A stretch of DNA of 64,000 nucleotides, taken from the NCBI RefSeq assembly GCF_000507245.1, contig NC_023035.1, forward strand, positions 2,271,501-2,335,500, in the 5' to 3' direction. Positions 8,606-15,756 of the stretch are shown here, piece after piece (position 1 is the stretch's first letter; the number at the start of each line of letters is the position of its first letter). A program made the position numbers and the translations under genes. The DNA comes from Salinispira pacifica (GTDB lineage: Bacteria > Spirochaetota > Spirochaetia > DSM-27196 > Salinispiraceae). The notes below the pieces were generated by a model. It worked only from the letters and a program-made list of their open reading frames with translations. It did no database searches and was not told the DNA's origin.

Positions 8606-9802
8606 ATGAACACATTACAACCATACATCACCAGACTGCTGACCCAAATCAGCACAAATTCCCTTGATTTTACTCACCACAGCCCGGTCCCCCACTGCTC
8701 AAACCCCCATTGCCCCCGGTTTGCAGACCAGAAACCCCATGATCAGTCATGGTTCAGGTTTCATGGATGCTACTTCACCAAAGCCTTCGGCAGGGTTCCG
8801 CGCTACCGCTGTCAGGATTGCGGCAAGACCTTTTCCCTCCAGACATTCCGCATGGATTACTACGTGAAAAAGCCGGTGGACTACATTCCCCTCATCCGCC
8901 AGCTTGTCTCTTCCAGCGGACAGGGCAACATGACCCGCTTCACCGGTATGCGCTATGAGCAGATCCAGAACAGATACGAACGCATCTGCCGTGTGCTTCT
9001 GGCCATCCATTCTGATATGCGCAAGCTGATCAAACCGGAAGATGAGTTCGCCCTGGACGGCTTTGAATCCTTCAGCGTGAGTCAGTTCTTCCCCAACAAC
9101 ATCAATATCCTGGTGGGAAGCGGCTCAGAGTTGATATACGCAATGGGATATTCCCAGCTGAGGCGTAAAGGACGGATGACTGAAAGACAGCGGCAGAAGC
9201 GAACTGACTTGGAGCAAACCCTGGGCAAGGCTCCGGGAAATGCCGTTGAGAAATCGGTCCAGTCCATTCTTACCCACTTGTGTAAATACATGAAAGATAA
9301 AGACATACCGGATGTTACGCTGAATACCGACTATCACAAGGCGTATGTTCGGGCCCTTTCGAAGGTGCCTGAGGGCAGGTCCCGGATACATCATCGTCAG
9401 CATTCATCCACCCTGCCGCGCACCCCGTCAAACCGGCTGTTCCCGGTGAATTATGTGGACCGGCAGTTTCGCAAAAATCAGGCGAACCACGTGCGGGAGT
9501 CGGTACAGTTCGCCCGATCTCCTGCAGCAATGATGGTGCGGCTGAGCATTTATCAGATGGTGCATAATTATCTCATGCCCCGGAGGGTGCGGGATCAGAG
9601 AAAAGGAAACTGGAAGACCAGAGGAGAACAGCTTGGAGTTCCGGGATGGAAGCTTCATGAGGTAATCAGGAAACACTGGAGCAGGAGAGTTTTCCTGAAC
9701 AAGTGCAGCTTGTGGGAACCAGAGAGGATGACCTGGCTGCTTGGATGGCGAAACCGGGGGATTGATTCAGGCCGAAGGCTGCCGTTTCATGTGTGGGTGT
9801 GA
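8606..9802 (+). CDS. IS transposase with N-terminal zinc ribbon
   Basis: A 398-residue protein encoded by the insertion sequence. The N-terminal part holds two cysteine pairs, CSNPHC (about residues 31-36) and CQDCGKTFS (about 71-79), forming an InsA-like zinc ribbon for DNA binding. The middle has plausible catalytic acidic positions (ALDGFESF; TLNTDYHKAY) of a DDE-type RNase H fold, followed by an Arg/His-rich region. The layout resembles the IS1-related COG3677 group, but the single long ORF differs from classical two-ORF IS1. The IS family cannot be fixed without a database comparison. No truncation or frameshift is visible. Confidence 0.8.
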   Translation: MNTLQPYITRLLTQISTNSLDFTHHSPVPHCSNPHCPRFADQKPHDQSWFRFHGCYFTKAFGRVPRYRCQDCGKTFSLQTFRMDYYVKKPVDYIPLIRQLVSSSGQGNMTRFTGMRYEQIQNRYERICRVLLAIHSDMRKLIKPEDEFALDGFESFSVSQFFPNNINILVGSGSELIYAMGYSQLRRKGRMTERQRQKRTDLEQTLGKAPGNAVEKSVQSILTHLCKYMKDKDIPDVTLNTDYHKAYVRALSKVPEGRSRIHHRQHSSTLPRTPSNRLFPVNYVDRQFRKNQANHVRESVQFARSPAAMMVRLSIYQMVHNYLMPRRVRDQRKGNWKTRGEQLGVPGWKLHEVIRKHWSRRVFLNKCSLWEPERMTWLLGWRNRGIDSGRRLPFHVWV

Positions 9803-9935: not shown

Positions 9936-9966
9936 AAAAAAAACCGACGGATTTCTCCGCCGGTTT
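9936..9966 (-). terminator. Rho-independent terminator of the rhodanese lipoprotein gene
   Basis: On the minus strand AAACCGGCGG pairs with CCGTCGGTTT (one mismatch) around a six-base loop and is followed by eight T's (A-run 9936-9943 on the plus strand). It lies about 50 bases beyond the stop at 10018. Confidence 0.85.
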
Positions 9967-10017: not shown

Positions 10018-10905
10018 TTAGAACAAGGTGAGTTCAAAGTTCTCATCGCCGAGAATCTTGTTATTTCCACTGTAGTTGGCAATTCCACCCACGTTGTACA
10101 CTTTGCTGTATCCGATCTCTTCAAGTGCAGACTTAACGTACCCTGCACGGGTGCCGGAACCGCACATCAGGAAAATTTCCCTGTCCTGGGCTCCGAAAAT
10201 ATTCTGCAGTTTTGCCCGGGATTCGATGTCTTCTGCGGAGAACTCCCAGCCGTTGTTACGAACCAGAGCGTTGTTATCGAGGTATTCAAAGAATGATACC
10301 AGTTCGAAACTGTCGATGTAGCCTGCGGTATACTTGTCGGCAACATTCCGCAGATCAACATATTTCGCACCGGGACGGTAGAGGTAGGAATCGATATTGT
10401 CCATTGTCACCTCTTCAGGGAGGGCTGCAACACCGGCATATTCACCGTCACCCAGAACCTTATTTTCACCGTCGTAATCCCGGATGCCTCCGGCATTATA
10501 GACCTTGCTGTATCCGAGATCTTCCAGGGCAGCTTTCACATACCCGGCACGGGTGCCTGAACCGCACATGAGAATGACCGCTTCATCTTTTTCACCGAAC
10601 ACGTTTTCCAGCATGGCGCTGCTCTCAATATCAGCTGAAGAAAATTCCCAGCCATTGTTGCGAACCAGAGCCCTGCCTTCCAGATATTCAAAAAACGGTA
10701 CCACTTCGAAGCCTTCGATGTAGCCGCCGCTGAACATATCGGAGAAGTTCCGAAGATCGATAAGTCGGGCGTCTGCATCAAGATAGGAATCGATATTTCC
10801 CATACTGATATCTTCATTACCGCTGAGTTCAGCAGCTGAACCTCCGCAGCTGATAAGGCTTACGGCAATCATTAAACCTGCAAGTACAATTGCGAGTTTT
10901 TTCAT
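10018..10905 (-). CDS. Tandem rhodanese-like domain lipoprotein
   Basis: A 295-residue predicted lipoprotein: signal peptide with lipobox LISC, Cys20. Two repeated rhodanese-like domains follow (about 33-155 and 165-295), each with an active-site loop LMCGSGTRAGYVK; the cysteines are Cys114 and Cys248. The repeats are highly alike, so this is an internal duplication. Single rhodanese domains carry persulfide sulfur; an exported two-active-site form may handle sulfur or disulfide chemistry in the envelope, but the substrate is unknown. The start is the ATG at 10903-10905, with GAGGAG about 8 bases upstream; longer in-frame starts lack such a site. The FMN-bind-like lipoprotein gene lies upstream on the same strand, 144 bases away. 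Confidence 0.85.
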   Translation of the reverse strand: MKKLAIVLAGLMIAVSLISCGGSAAELSGNEDISMGNIDSYLDADARLIDLRNFSDMFSGGYIEGFEVVPFFEYLEGRALVRNNGWEFSSADIESSAMLENVFGEKDEAVILMCGSGTRAGYVKAALEDLGYSKVYNAGGIRDYDGENKVLGDGEYAGVAALPEEVTMDNIDSYLYRPGAKYVDLRNVADKYTAGYIDSFELVSFFEYLDNNALVRNNGWEFSAEDIESRAKLQNIFGAQDREIFLMCGSGTRAGYVKSALEEIGYSKVYNVGGIANYSGNNKILGDENFELTLF

Positions 10906-11049
10906 GTAATATCTCCTCTTGTCCGGAATCATCACAGATTCCGGAAAATCATCATTGGTATGGTGCATCGTCTCGGGATTCCCCCCTGATTCTGCCGGGC
11001 GTCCTCAGCACGGACGATGCGTTAACGTCATTTTGCTGCGGGCATCTTC

Positions 11050-11640
11050 TTACATATACCGTTCGTTGTGGTATTCGAACAGTCCCTGAAGCATGCGCAC
11101 TGCATTATTGGGGGTAACGGTAGCGCCGGTGTAGGCATCCACTTCCCCATGCATGGGCTCGATGGCATTAATATCTTCCTGGGTTCCGCCCATAAGATTG
11201 TCTTCGGTGTACTGCATCAGCAGTTCGTGGGCAGGTATTCCGTCCCAGGTTACATAGCTGTCACCGTACATTCCTGCGGTGTAGTGACCGCTGGAGTCAT
11301 CATCCCAGGAGATAAATGTTACTGATCCGTCTTCCTTGCTGAGTTCAACGTAAGCCACCGACCAGTAGTTCACCTGGGGTCCACGGCAGGTACAGGCAAT
11401 ATACACAACCTGATACTTAACGGTTTCAAGCTGTTCGTACTCGAAGGGAACGAAAGCAACCATTTCCGTTTCTTCCTCATGTCCGTTTACGTGAGTATAG
11501 TAGAATGCGTTTTCAACAAGAATTCCCTCACCCGAAGCCGCTTCCTGGGTTTCCGCTGATTGATTGTCTGAATCCGATCCGCACGATACAAGAACTGCAG
11601 CTGCAACCAGCAGTACTGCAATAAGGAATGCTTTTTTCAC
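11050..11640 (-). CDS. FMN-bind-like lipoprotein with a candidate flavinylation site
   Basis: A 196-residue predicted lipoprotein: signal peptide with lipobox LVSC, Cys20. The C-terminal region contains DAYTGATVT (Asp168-Thr174), matching the D-x-x-S/T-G-A-T motif in FMN_bind proteins to which ApbE attaches FMN, probably at Thr174. A CTC pair (Cys83, Cys85) is also present. Proteins of this type work in extracytoplasmic electron transfer. The start is GTG at 11640 with AGGAGA correctly spaced upstream. The promoter overlaps a 44-bp perfect palindrome. No apbE is in the window, so flavinylation is inferred from the motif. Confidence 0.65.
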   Translation of the reverse strand: MKKAFLIAVLLVAAAVLVSCGSDSDNQSAETQEAASGEGILVENAFYYTHVNGHEEETEMVAFVPFEYEQLETVKYQVVYIACTCRGPQVNYWSVAYVELSKEDGSVTFISWDDDSSGHYTAGMYGDSYVTWDGIPAHELLMQYTEDNLMGGTQEDINAIEPMHGEVDAYTGATVTPNNAVRMLQGLFEYHNERYM

Positions 11641-11660: not shown

Positions 11661-11704
11661 TAATATACTTATATAGATAAATAATTATCTATATAAGTAT
11701 ATTA
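11661..11704. promoter_or_regulatory. 44-bp perfect palindrome starting at the -10 of the FMN-bind lipoprotein promoter
   Basis: The arms 11661-11680 (TAATATACTTATATAGATAA) and 11685-11704 are exact reverse complements separated by ATAA. On the minus strand the right arm begins with a -10 TAATAT (11699-11704), with a -35 TTGCTA at 11722-11727 and a 17-base spacer. The palindrome therefore covers the -10 and transcription start, ending 20 bases before the GTG. It could be an operator or form a 5' RNA hairpin. Confidence 0.75.
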
Positions 11705-11980: not shown

Positions 11981-12589
11981 ATGGATTATCTGACAACTCT
12001 CAGCGATGAATATTTCAACAAAGGCATGACAATGGATGAGTATGTCTCCGGTGCCAGAAACTACCGGAGCTTTGTGCGGCAGCTCATGGAAAAGGCAGAA
12101 GTGAAGGACAATCAGGTTCAGCGCCTGCAGGAGCTGAAGAAGAATCTTGGAGAACTTCGGGTCACGGTGAATACCGAAGACTGGTGCGGTGACTGGGCCT
12201 GCAACGCACCCATTCTTGGGAAGCTTTTCTCGGAAGCGGGAGTGGAAATGAGAATATTTCGCGGTTCGGAATTTCCCTTGCTGAAAGAACGGTACGAACG
12301 GGACGGAGATGATCACATACCTGCCGTTTCAATCTGGAATCGGAACGGGGACGAAATGATCCGCTGGATTGAGGCTCCTGCAGCGGTTGCAGAAAAAAAG
12401 GATCGTTGGAAGAAGGAACATCCGGAATTCACCCGGACCTATGCCCTTCAGAAGGAGGATCCGAAGGCAAAAAAAGAATTTGCCGTGATGTATCGGAATT
12501 TTCTTGATATGATGGGCGAGTGGTACAGCTCGGGCATGTGGGATGAGACTGTGCGGGAAATACTTGAAAAACTGGAGAAACAGCAATGA
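11981..12589 (+). CDS. Thioredoxin-fold protein (Thioredoxin_9-like)
   Basis: A 202-residue cytoplasmic protein with no signal peptide. The core TVNTEDWCGDWACNAP places Cys69 and Cys74 in a widened WCxxxxC motif at the end of the first strand, followed by a thioredoxin-like IPAVSIWN cis-proline segment about 45 residues later. The N-terminal helix and charged C-terminus resemble the small thioredoxin-like family Thioredoxin_9. A disulfide or low-molecular-weight thiol redox role is likely, without a known partner. Its last four bases overlap the start of the SDR gene (ATGA), so the two form an operon. Confidence 0.75.
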   Translation: MDYLTTLSDEYFNKGMTMDEYVSGARNYRSFVRQLMEKAEVKDNQVQRLQELKKNLGELRVTVNTEDWCGDWACNAPILGKLFSEAGVEMRIFRGSEFPLLKERYERDGDDHIPAVSIWNRNGDEMIRWIEAPAAVAEKKDRWKKEHPEFTRTYALQKEDPKAKKEFAVMYRNFLDMMGEWYSSGMWDETVREILEKLEKQQ

Positions 12590-13491: not shown

Positions 13492-15600
13492 TCAGCCCAG
13501 ATGTTTCAGGGCTGAGAGGATTGCCGAAAAATCAACCTGTACCCAGCTGTCGTTATAAAACCCCCATATACTGGAAAATTTCAGGTCGGTCAGATCCAGA
13601 ATACTGATGCTGCCGTTGATTTCCAGCTGTGAGGGTTCGGTAAGCGGTGTACCGTGTTTTGCGGTATATTTGGATCCGTAAAAATCATAGCTTTCAGACC
13701 GGGCGTAGCTGCCGTCGGAATTCCGCAGATACTCATCATCCTGCGGATGGGACGCGTAGCTCTTTTCAAAGGGATTGAGATAATCGATCATCTGCCTGGC
13801 GCTTGTGAAATCAAGTTTGGATGATTCGGCACGCTGTTTCCAGAATTTCTGATTCAGCAGATCGTAGCGGTACTGACTCTCAGCATCATTTTTTTGGATA
13901 TGCTGAAGTTCTCCGATCCAGGCATTCATGGACAGCAGCCTCATCTGGGGACTGATATAATGGTTACTCACCATAATGCAGTCCGGGAGAATCCGTTCAC
14001 CGGGAAAAAAGAATACCGAGGGAACGATGTAATCCTTTTCATGCCCCGGCGACAGATGAATTCGGCGGATATCCCGGGAGCTGACAAACATTCCTCCGGG
14101 CTGATTCATTTCAGGTTGATATTCGAGCCCGAACAGTCTGAAAAGATTGCGGTTCTGGGATTCCAGGTTCAGCTCAACAGGTTCATCGTTCATCCAGCGC
14201 ACCACCATCCCCCGGCGAAACGGCCTTTGAAGATCATAGGAATCCAGATCTGCCGGGTCGGGCAGACAGCCCTCTTCATTCAGCAATCGCGGGGGAAGGT
14301 ATTCGAAAAAATCCCGTTTCTGAAAACAATCCCCGGTCTCCATGACACAGGCGGAGGGGTAGTTGTACCGAGGACTCAATTTCCCCGCCGGGGCCGCCCC
14401 GTGGTTCCCCTCCACGGTCTGAGGCACTTCGGCAAAGTCAGGGTGCACGTCGCCCTGAGCTGCAGGATACAGATAGCTCACCCCTCTGTTATCCCGGCTG
14501 ATACACTCCACCAGATCCGGGAGACTTCGGTTGTTTTGAAGGGCATGGCGGACCAGAAGGAGGGAATTCAGCCCCGGTACCCCCCGGCGCACATTTCCAC
14601 CGGCGGCCAGATGCACCCCCATGGAGAGCCCGTAGGGATTCAGCCCCACCACAGATCCTGCGAAGCCCGGTGCACCGAACCCCAGATAGGGTGCAGATCC
14701 CTCCTGGTTATACAGAAGATATGCTCCGGTGCGGTTAAACACATCACAGGTGCTGAACATAAAATCCCTGCCGAAGAGCATGTGACCGTTTTGGGTCATT
14801 GTTCCCTGTGCAGCAAAGGAATTGCAGGATAAGGGGTCCTGATACTCTTCCAGACGGTACTGCAGGCCCAGAAAACCGGCCACATCGTATACGTAAGAAA
14901 GAATGGTATCCACACCATAATTCAGGGCAACCAGATCCCGGAACAAGACAGGACGGGACTTCCGTGCTCCCCGGTACATGCCGTACATCTCTTCACTCAG
15001 TTCCCAGGGAATATTGTGCATGCTCACAGCAGATCGGAGAAACACCAGTTCAGTGAGCAGATTTCCAACCACTTTCCGGAAACTGGGCCATTTTTTCAAT
15101 CCGAAGGTGGAGAAGATCACATTGTTGCTGTATTCCCTGCTCATGGCAAGAATGTTGTCGGGGGCAAGAATTCCCATGAGGAAACCGGCCTGGGCGGGAC
15201 GGCCCTCCAGGTAGTAGAGATACTTTTCGCTGCTGCCCTGTGGAATCGAGAAGGCCCTTCGCCCGTCGGCCTCAACGGCAACCAGGCGGCTGGAGTTGAA
15301 CCCGTCCTTCTCCAGCTGCCGGATAAGAGGATCATACCGGGGCGGCAGGGTACAGCGGTACTTTTGCAGCACGGAACGGCGGCCGATGGTAAAGCGGTTC
15401 ATGTTCCTGATATCTTTTCGTGCGGAGGGGTGGAACAGGGAAAACATGAACGATACCAGCAGCCTGTAGCCGTGGGTAAACTGGTCAATGAATGTAAGGA
15501 CAGCCGCAAGAATCAAAAAGGCAAGCACCGATAATGCAGATACCAGACCGTAGAGCAGCCGGGGAAGAGTCCAATACATTTCAAAGGGCCGCTGTTTCAT
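13492..15600 (-). CDS. Membrane-anchored C45-type Ntn-hydrolase-like protein
   Basis: A 702-residue protein. A strong hydrophobic segment near residues 15-40 suggests a membrane anchor. The middle contains SCNSFAAQGTMTQNG followed by LFGRDFMF, the pattern around the nucleophilic cysteine (about Cys259) and arginine of peptidase family C45 (acyl-CoA:6-aminopenicillanate acyltransferase-like), then VGLNPYGLSMGVH. Normally this cysteine becomes N-terminal by self-cleavage, here after an unusually long ~258-residue propart. Acyl-amide or peptide amide hydrolysis is expected; the substrate is unknown. The ATG at 15598-15600 is preferred, with GGAGG five bases upstream. The gene stands alone, convergent with the SDR gene. 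Confidence 0.7.
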   Translation of the reverse strand: MKQRPFEMYWTLPRLLYGLVSALSVLAFLILAAVLTFIDQFTHGYRLLVSFMFSLFHPSARKDIRNMNRFTIGRRSVLQKYRCTLPPRYDPLIRQLEKDGFNSSRLVAVEADGRRAFSIPQGSSEKYLYYLEGRPAQAGFLMGILAPDNILAMSREYSNNVIFSTFGLKKWPSFRKVVGNLLTELVFLRSAVSMHNIPWELSEEMYGMYRGARKSRPVLFRDLVALNYGVDTILSYVYDVAGFLGLQYRLEEYQDPLSCNSFAAQGTMTQNGHMLFGRDFMFSTCDVFNRTGAYLLYNQEGSAPYLGFGAPGFAGSVVGLNPYGLSMGVHLAAGGNVRRGVPGLNSLLLVRHALQNNRSLPDLVECISRDNRGVSYLYPAAQGDVHPDFAEVPQTVEGNHGAAPAGKLSPRYNYPSACVMETGDCFQKRDFFEYLPPRLLNEEGCLPDPADLDSYDLQRPFRRGMVVRWMNDEPVELNLESQNRNLFRLFGLEYQPEMNQPGGMFVSSRDIRRIHLSPGHEKDYIVPSVFFFPGERILPDCIMVSNHYISPQMRLLSMNAWIGELQHIQKNDAESQYRYDLLNQKFWKQRAESSKLDFTSARQMIDYLNPFEKSYASHPQDDEYLRNSDGSYARSESYDFYGSKYTAKHGTPLTEPSQLEINGSISILDLTDLKFSSIWGFYNDSWVQVDFSAILSALKHLG

Positions 15601-15756
15601 ATCAGCCTCCAAACGAAGAGATACAGCACCGCCGTCCCGGGATGTGAGAAAACCGTAATAATTCGGATTCGCGGTGCTGATATATCAACTATACTGGAGA
15701 CTATTTAAAAAATCCATGTTCATGGCGGAGAACCGGTCTCTTCATTGGCTTTAAGG

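Follow-up and report, generated by a model that had tools for sequence, protein, structure and literature searches.

The window, a 64,000-nucleotide stretch of the Salinispira pacifica genome, contains two adjacent minus-strand genes that encode an FMN_bind-type protein and a tandem-rhodanese protein (Table 1), both lying where the original prediction had placed them. The FMN gene comes first and is followed, after a 144 bp gap, by the rhodanese gene and then by a terminator-like hairpin on the same strand, although only this one hairpin was found against a mean of 1.6 in shuffles. Upstream of the FMN gene lies a perfect inverted repeat, the core of which has no other occurrence in the genome at up to three mismatches; because of this uniqueness, the repeat is a candidate operator that may be dedicated to the pair. 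The palindrome was also sought 5' of the other 18 pairs described below, where nothing comparable was reported save a different repeat in locus L092.

The pair is adjoined by a divergent Thioredoxin_9 gene (11981-12589, plus strand; 71.7 bits), which was not noticed near the pair in the relatives inspected. A 398-residue ORF that converges on the pair (8606-9802, plus strand) has weak matches to zinc-ribbon, IS1/IS1595 and ISL3 transposase families and perhaps represents a mobile element, and a 706-residue ORF (13492-15612, minus strand) matches the C45 autoproteolytic acyltransferases below threshold (70.6 bits, cut-off 85).

Table 1. Features of the FMN_bind-rhodanese locus, in window coordinates.
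Feature	Position	Strand	Details and basis
FMN_bind-type lipoprotein gene, predicted ApbE substrate	11050..11640	-	196 aa, GTG start; PF04205, motif, AlphaFold model, ribosome-binding site
CxCR motif C83-T84-C85-R86 in the FMN protein	11383..11394	-	alignment of 19 homologues
Flavinylation motif D168-A-Y-T-G-A-T174	11119..11139	-	fits D-x-x-[ST]-G-A-[ST]
Tandem-rhodanese lipoprotein gene	10018..10905	-	295 aa with corrected start; PF00581, lipobox LISC, ribosome-binding site
Rhodanese domain 1, catalytic-loop Cys114 (CGSGTR)	10564..10566	-	
Rhodanese domain 2, catalytic-loop Cys248 (CGSGTR)	10162..10164	-	
Intrinsic-terminator-like hairpin closing the pair	9941..9966	-	position only
Perfect 20-nt inverted repeat, 4-nt spacer, candidate operator	11661..11704	.	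upstream of the FMN gene

Both products are predicted to be lipoproteins, as originally proposed, a lipobox being found in each N-terminus. The rhodanese ORF had been started at 10968 (316 residues), which is 21 codons too early; a start at 10905 is preferred because AGAGGAG stands shortly 5' of its ATG and the signal peptide MKKLAIVLAGLMIAVSLISC follows directly. The Pfam Rhodanese model (PF00581) matches the protein in two stretches with 52.5 bits (cut-off 22.2), and the C-x4-R loop is intact in both domains, each loop reading CGSGTRA, so that the two catalytic cysteines noted earlier are indeed in place. The NCBIfam equivalog model for PspE, a periplasmic thiosulfate sulfurtransferase, matches both domains, but with 49.4 bits it falls far under its cut-off of 102, and PDB entry 2jtq, used for the PspE comparison, matches with an E value of 5e-6; PspE itself is a single-domain protein with no known flavin partner. 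Sud was not named among the PDB matches at E 0.001. The structure model of the tandem rhodanese was poor (mean pLDDT 49) and was set aside.

The FMN gene is preceded by an AGGAG ribosome-binding site 5' of its GTG start, and its product begins with MKKAFLIAVLLVAAAVLVSC, in which the lipobox was judged by eye. A match to the FMN_bind profile (PF04205) had been set beforehand as a test of the assignment, and it was obtained, marginally, at 22.9 bits where the cut-off is 22. According to a 2025 review (PMC12052999), the target motif of the flavin transferase ApbE is D-x-x-[ST]-G-A-[ST]; the predicted DAYTGAT motif with Thr174 fits this pattern and is intact, and FMN is predicted to be attached covalently to this threonine. 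Among the homologues described below, D168 and G172 are kept in 19 of 19 and the strict motif in 13, with TGAT replaced by TGSS in the aligned domain of four treponeme-like proteins and by AGAT in two others. At E 0.01, PF04205 matches 14 of 17 aligned family members, four of which are the treponeme-like proteins with an additional N-terminal FMN_bind domain, whereas a Pfam scan gave no FMN_bind match for the homologues of L090 and L093.

The AlphaFold model of the FMN protein (mean pLDDT 74.8, pTM 0.71) points to an RnfG/NqrC fold. Foldseek alone returned nothing at E <= 0.001 with this model; when Foldseek's own list was re-examined with VIA-align, ranks 1-11 were all RnfG/NqrC structures (Z 8.9-5.5, rmsd 2.9-4.5, 111-122 residues). 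Profile comparisons were weaker: when the family was aligned by hhalign with individual NqrC and RnfG sequences, the probabilities were 8 and 1 percent, respectively, and a PDB search with the family profile produced nothing convincing (best E 0.54, and an FMN4 domain at 0.57). The window protein shares its predicted fold and flavinylation motif with RnfG and NqrC, but differs from them in having a predicted lipid anchor instead of a membrane helix, an invariant CxCR motif and a rhodanese partner, and in lying outside Rnf and Nqr operons. The genome has three FMN_bind genes, which encode NqrC and RnfG, both named by their neighbours and sequence, and the window protein. The flavinylation site of the RnfG (L002:1201-1818) reads DSITAAT, not S/T-G-A-T. 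In a Sphaerochaetaceae MAG, two HSGAS repeats lie within an insertion that precedes the flavinylation motif of the FMN protein (L057:9998-10723).

The most telling feature of the FMN protein, overlooked in the original prediction, is the CxCR motif. C83, C85 and R86 are invariant in all 19 aligned homologues, together with Y76, Q77, N91, E99, G126, S128, D168, G172, V175, N179, Y190 and H191. In 15 of the 19, C83 and C85 are the sole cysteines within the last 165 residues; NqrC of the same genome has no cysteine and RnfG has one. H50 is invariant across a 17-member alignment and present in 14 members of the 19-member alignment, because the N-terminal part is cut off in the rest.

Among 61 relatives (own genome included), six have an FMN homologue. 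A search of the genome collection gave seven loci, four of which repeat records from the relatives. Within the same phylum, 392 genomes were searched and 11 had a homologue; in the phylum of a Bacillota MAG (G061), the count was three among 398 genomes. One match in the own phylum was dropped as a fragment, leaving 10 (G410: 68 residues with three stops, and no ORF matched in the region), and one in the Bacillota phylum as spurious (G611: limited to the N-terminal 52 positions of a 520-residue lipoprotein). A class-level search around G484 covered only three genomes and brought no additions, and a plasmid search gave no match. After weak matches had been dropped, 19 distinct genomes with the FMN protein remained.

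A rhodanese-family gene is the direct same-strand neighbour of the FMN gene in 19 of these 19 genomes, across two phyla and in either order, which bears out the co-occurrence that had been proposed as a check, rules out chance neighbours and leaves the pairing of the two genes well supported. The FMN gene is first in 11 genomes (the clade of the window and four genomes that we read as treponeme-like) and the rhodanese gene in eight; L088 is counted among the latter because its rhodanese (9236-9778) precedes the FMN domain, the FMN ORF having been called too far upstream. Of the 19 partners, 15 have an intact C-x-x-G-x-R rhodanese loop, and those of L090-L093 have Tyr in place of Arg. Three of these four divergent partners were scanned with Pfam, where L091 and L092 had no rhodanese match and the third fell below cut-off; all four match the rhodanese family model built in this analysis. 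The distance matrices of the FMN and rhodanese protein trees correlate with r 0.75, a value reached in none of 2000 permutations, which ignore shared ancestry. The originally proposed coupling to a tandem rhodanese thus holds for the pairing itself, whereas the tandem form is not essential, since partners outside the clade of the window are mostly single-domain proteins.

The single exported ApbE of the own genome (269 bits) has a lipoprotein-like N-terminus, and ApbE is encoded in 17 of the 18 other pair genomes; in one MAG (G063) the pair is present and ApbE was not found. The FMN subunits of Nqr and Rnf need ApbE, and both complexes are also encoded in the own genome, so the presence of apbE there, although as predicted, lends the pair weak support. 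Stronger support comes from two treponeme-like loci in which apbE lies inside the operon, in the order FMN protein, rhodanese, ApbE (105 bits in L083, 99 bits in L084) and second rhodanese, with an extra ORF between the last two in L084. In both loci the FMN protein is extended at its N-terminus by a further FMN_bind domain, which scores 81 bits in L083, and the second rhodanese is confirmed by Pfam in L083 and matches the family model in L084.

The tandem rhodanese also occurs with another partner, which the original prediction likewise overlooked. Tandem rhodaneses of 51-55% identity are found in ten of 60 relatives without the FMN homologue (single-sequence search; fetched neighbourhood), and in all ten a PhsA-like large molybdoenzyme, with an N-terminus that looks TAT-like by eye, adjoins the rhodanese. 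An iron-sulfur subunit is visible at eight of the ten loci, ORF picking having failed to resolve it in L047 and L051. The molybdoenzyme of L046 is closest to the PhsA model but is not an equivalog (404.9 bits, cut-off 694), and in the PDB, where it was the one tested, it is closest to 2vpw, the catalytic subunit of a Thermus enzyme deposited as a thiosulfate reductase (E 5e-85; next best 2e-51). A NarJ/TorD-type chaperone gene (PF02613) follows the L046 rhodanese, and no membrane subunit was noticed adjoining the L046 molybdoenzyme. These enzymes are kin to the PhsA/PsrA thiosulfate and polysulfide reductases, which are absent from the own genome: no PF00384 enzyme was found there, nor any match to the L046 PhsA-like protein. 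PF00384 is absent from nine of the 19 pair genomes (own included) and present in all ten rhodanese-only genomes.

In a tree of rhodanese domains, the first and second domains cluster separately, each across the FMN-paired and the molybdoenzyme-paired groups, and therefore one old duplication predates the split and the partner has differed since. The ten molybdoenzyme loci represent three genera in two families, so that the exchange of partners may be a single event, and the adjacency of rhodanese and molybdoenzyme may have another cause. In G041, the gene for a molybdopterin oxidoreductase (L042:1208-3388), in which no TAT signal is obvious, lies about 4.5 kb from the pair on the opposite strand, beyond an apparent ABC transporter operon.

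These observations suggest a sulfur relay at the cell envelope coupled to flavin redox chemistry, in which the FMN lipoprotein reduces sulfane sulfur delivered by the rhodanese and sulfide is released, without molybdenum; we put this reading at slightly below even odds (roughly 0.45). The rhodanese lipoprotein would pick up sulfane sulfur, with polysulfide, thiosulfate or a low-molecular persulfide as the source, hold it as a cysteine persulfide and pass it, presumably in direct contact, to the neighbouring FMN lipoprotein. The latter, to which ApbE would have attached FMN covalently at Thr174, would receive electrons from the membrane side, and the sulfur transferred to the CxC would be reduced at Cys83-x-Cys85-Arg86. 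The pair would then be the molybdenum-free counterpart of what the PhsA/PsrA-type molybdoenzyme may do in the rhodanese-only relatives, and it is this PhsA/PsrA-like partner that makes the reductive direction the probable one. The earlier idea of an extracytoplasmic redox module acting on sulfur compounds is partly borne out, in its motifs and pairing, and judged from sequence its action on sulfur is plausible. More tentatively, the pair may constitute an envelope polysulfide or thiosulfate reductase proper, in which covalent FMN and the CxCR dithiol are served by a dedicated rhodanese and which is swapped for a PhsA/PsrA-type enzyme in relatives; such a reductase would make sulfur an electron sink without molybdopterin in spirochaetes and some Bacillota.

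A somewhat unlikely alternative is that the FMN lipoprotein is only a carrier, a single-flavin protein of extracellular electron transfer in which CxCR has a structural role or coordinates a metal with His191, and for which the rhodanese repairs or supplies sulfur. FMN_bind proteins are known as carriers (PMC8238504), and PplA, the flavoprotein of extracellular electron transfer in Listeria, is likewise an FMN_bind lipoprotein of the ApbE/FmnB substrate type. In L044 the pair is adjoined by a PplA-like lipoprotein with two FMN_bind domains, which scores 60 bits with the PplA model (cut-off 325), and L060 has one that is 69% identical to it. The window protein, however, reaches only 12.5 bits with the same model and differs from PplA in its one FMN domain, its CxCR motif and its rhodanese partner, and a plain carrier would need no adjoining rhodanese in 19 of 19 genomes.

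The combination of a flavin, two cysteines and a rhodanese would fit the opposite direction equally well, in that the FMN protein could oxidise sulfide at the CxC to a persulfide, with the flavin and the membrane receiving the electrons, while the rhodanese removes the sulfane sulfur; sulfide:quinone oxidoreductase (SQR) and its rhodanese partners are the model for this scheme. As the partner in the ten relatives resembles a reductase, and Pfam does not match the pyridine-nucleotide-disulfide fold, oxidation is considered unlikely. It is quite unlikely that the pair serves detoxification or stress defence by ridding the envelope of cyanide, oxidised thiols or surplus polysulfide and using the flavin as a disulfide reductant: rhodaneses do detoxify cyanide, and the pair is spread patchily through the phylum (10 genomes among 392 sampled), but the molybdoenzyme partner in ten relatives would be left unexplained. 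That the two genes are merely inherited together and do not act together is very improbable given their adjacency in 19 of 19 genomes, two phyla and two gene orders, even though related genomes are not independent.

For the reductive relay, precedents are known in RnfG/NqrC for the fold and in Sud for the sulfur carrier. Sud is linked to Psr. In Wolinella succinogenes, it is a periplasmic sulfurtransferase able to carry a sulfur chain (PMC3397948), and the window rhodanese is predicted to be of the same extracytoplasmic sulfurtransferase type; unlike Sud, it is a tandem lipoprotein in a genome without a molybdoenzyme. No description of the FMN_bind-rhodanese pairing was found in the open-access literature, a scope within which absence is not proof. 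The main texts of three flavinylation papers (PMC8238504, PMC12052999 and PMC11334425) do not mention rhodanese, and two papers that discuss rhodaneses in sulfur metabolism (PMC5317093 and PMC12998232) mention no FMN partner in the portions available. The folds are already known, and their combination with an invariant dithiol is apparently undescribed in the open-access literature.

Proteins flavinylated by ApbE are widespread and active in many uncharacterised processes (PMC8238504). If the proposed relay is correct, the constant rhodanese partner and the invariant dithiol would name sulfane sulfur as the acceptor for one group of them. This would bring sulfur metabolism within the reach of flavinylation, and the pair would provide a genetic marker of sulfur reduction for organisms without a molybdoenzyme. 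The presence of the pair in some anaerobic bacteria suggests an undescribed route by which electrons may be passed onto sulfur at the cell envelope.
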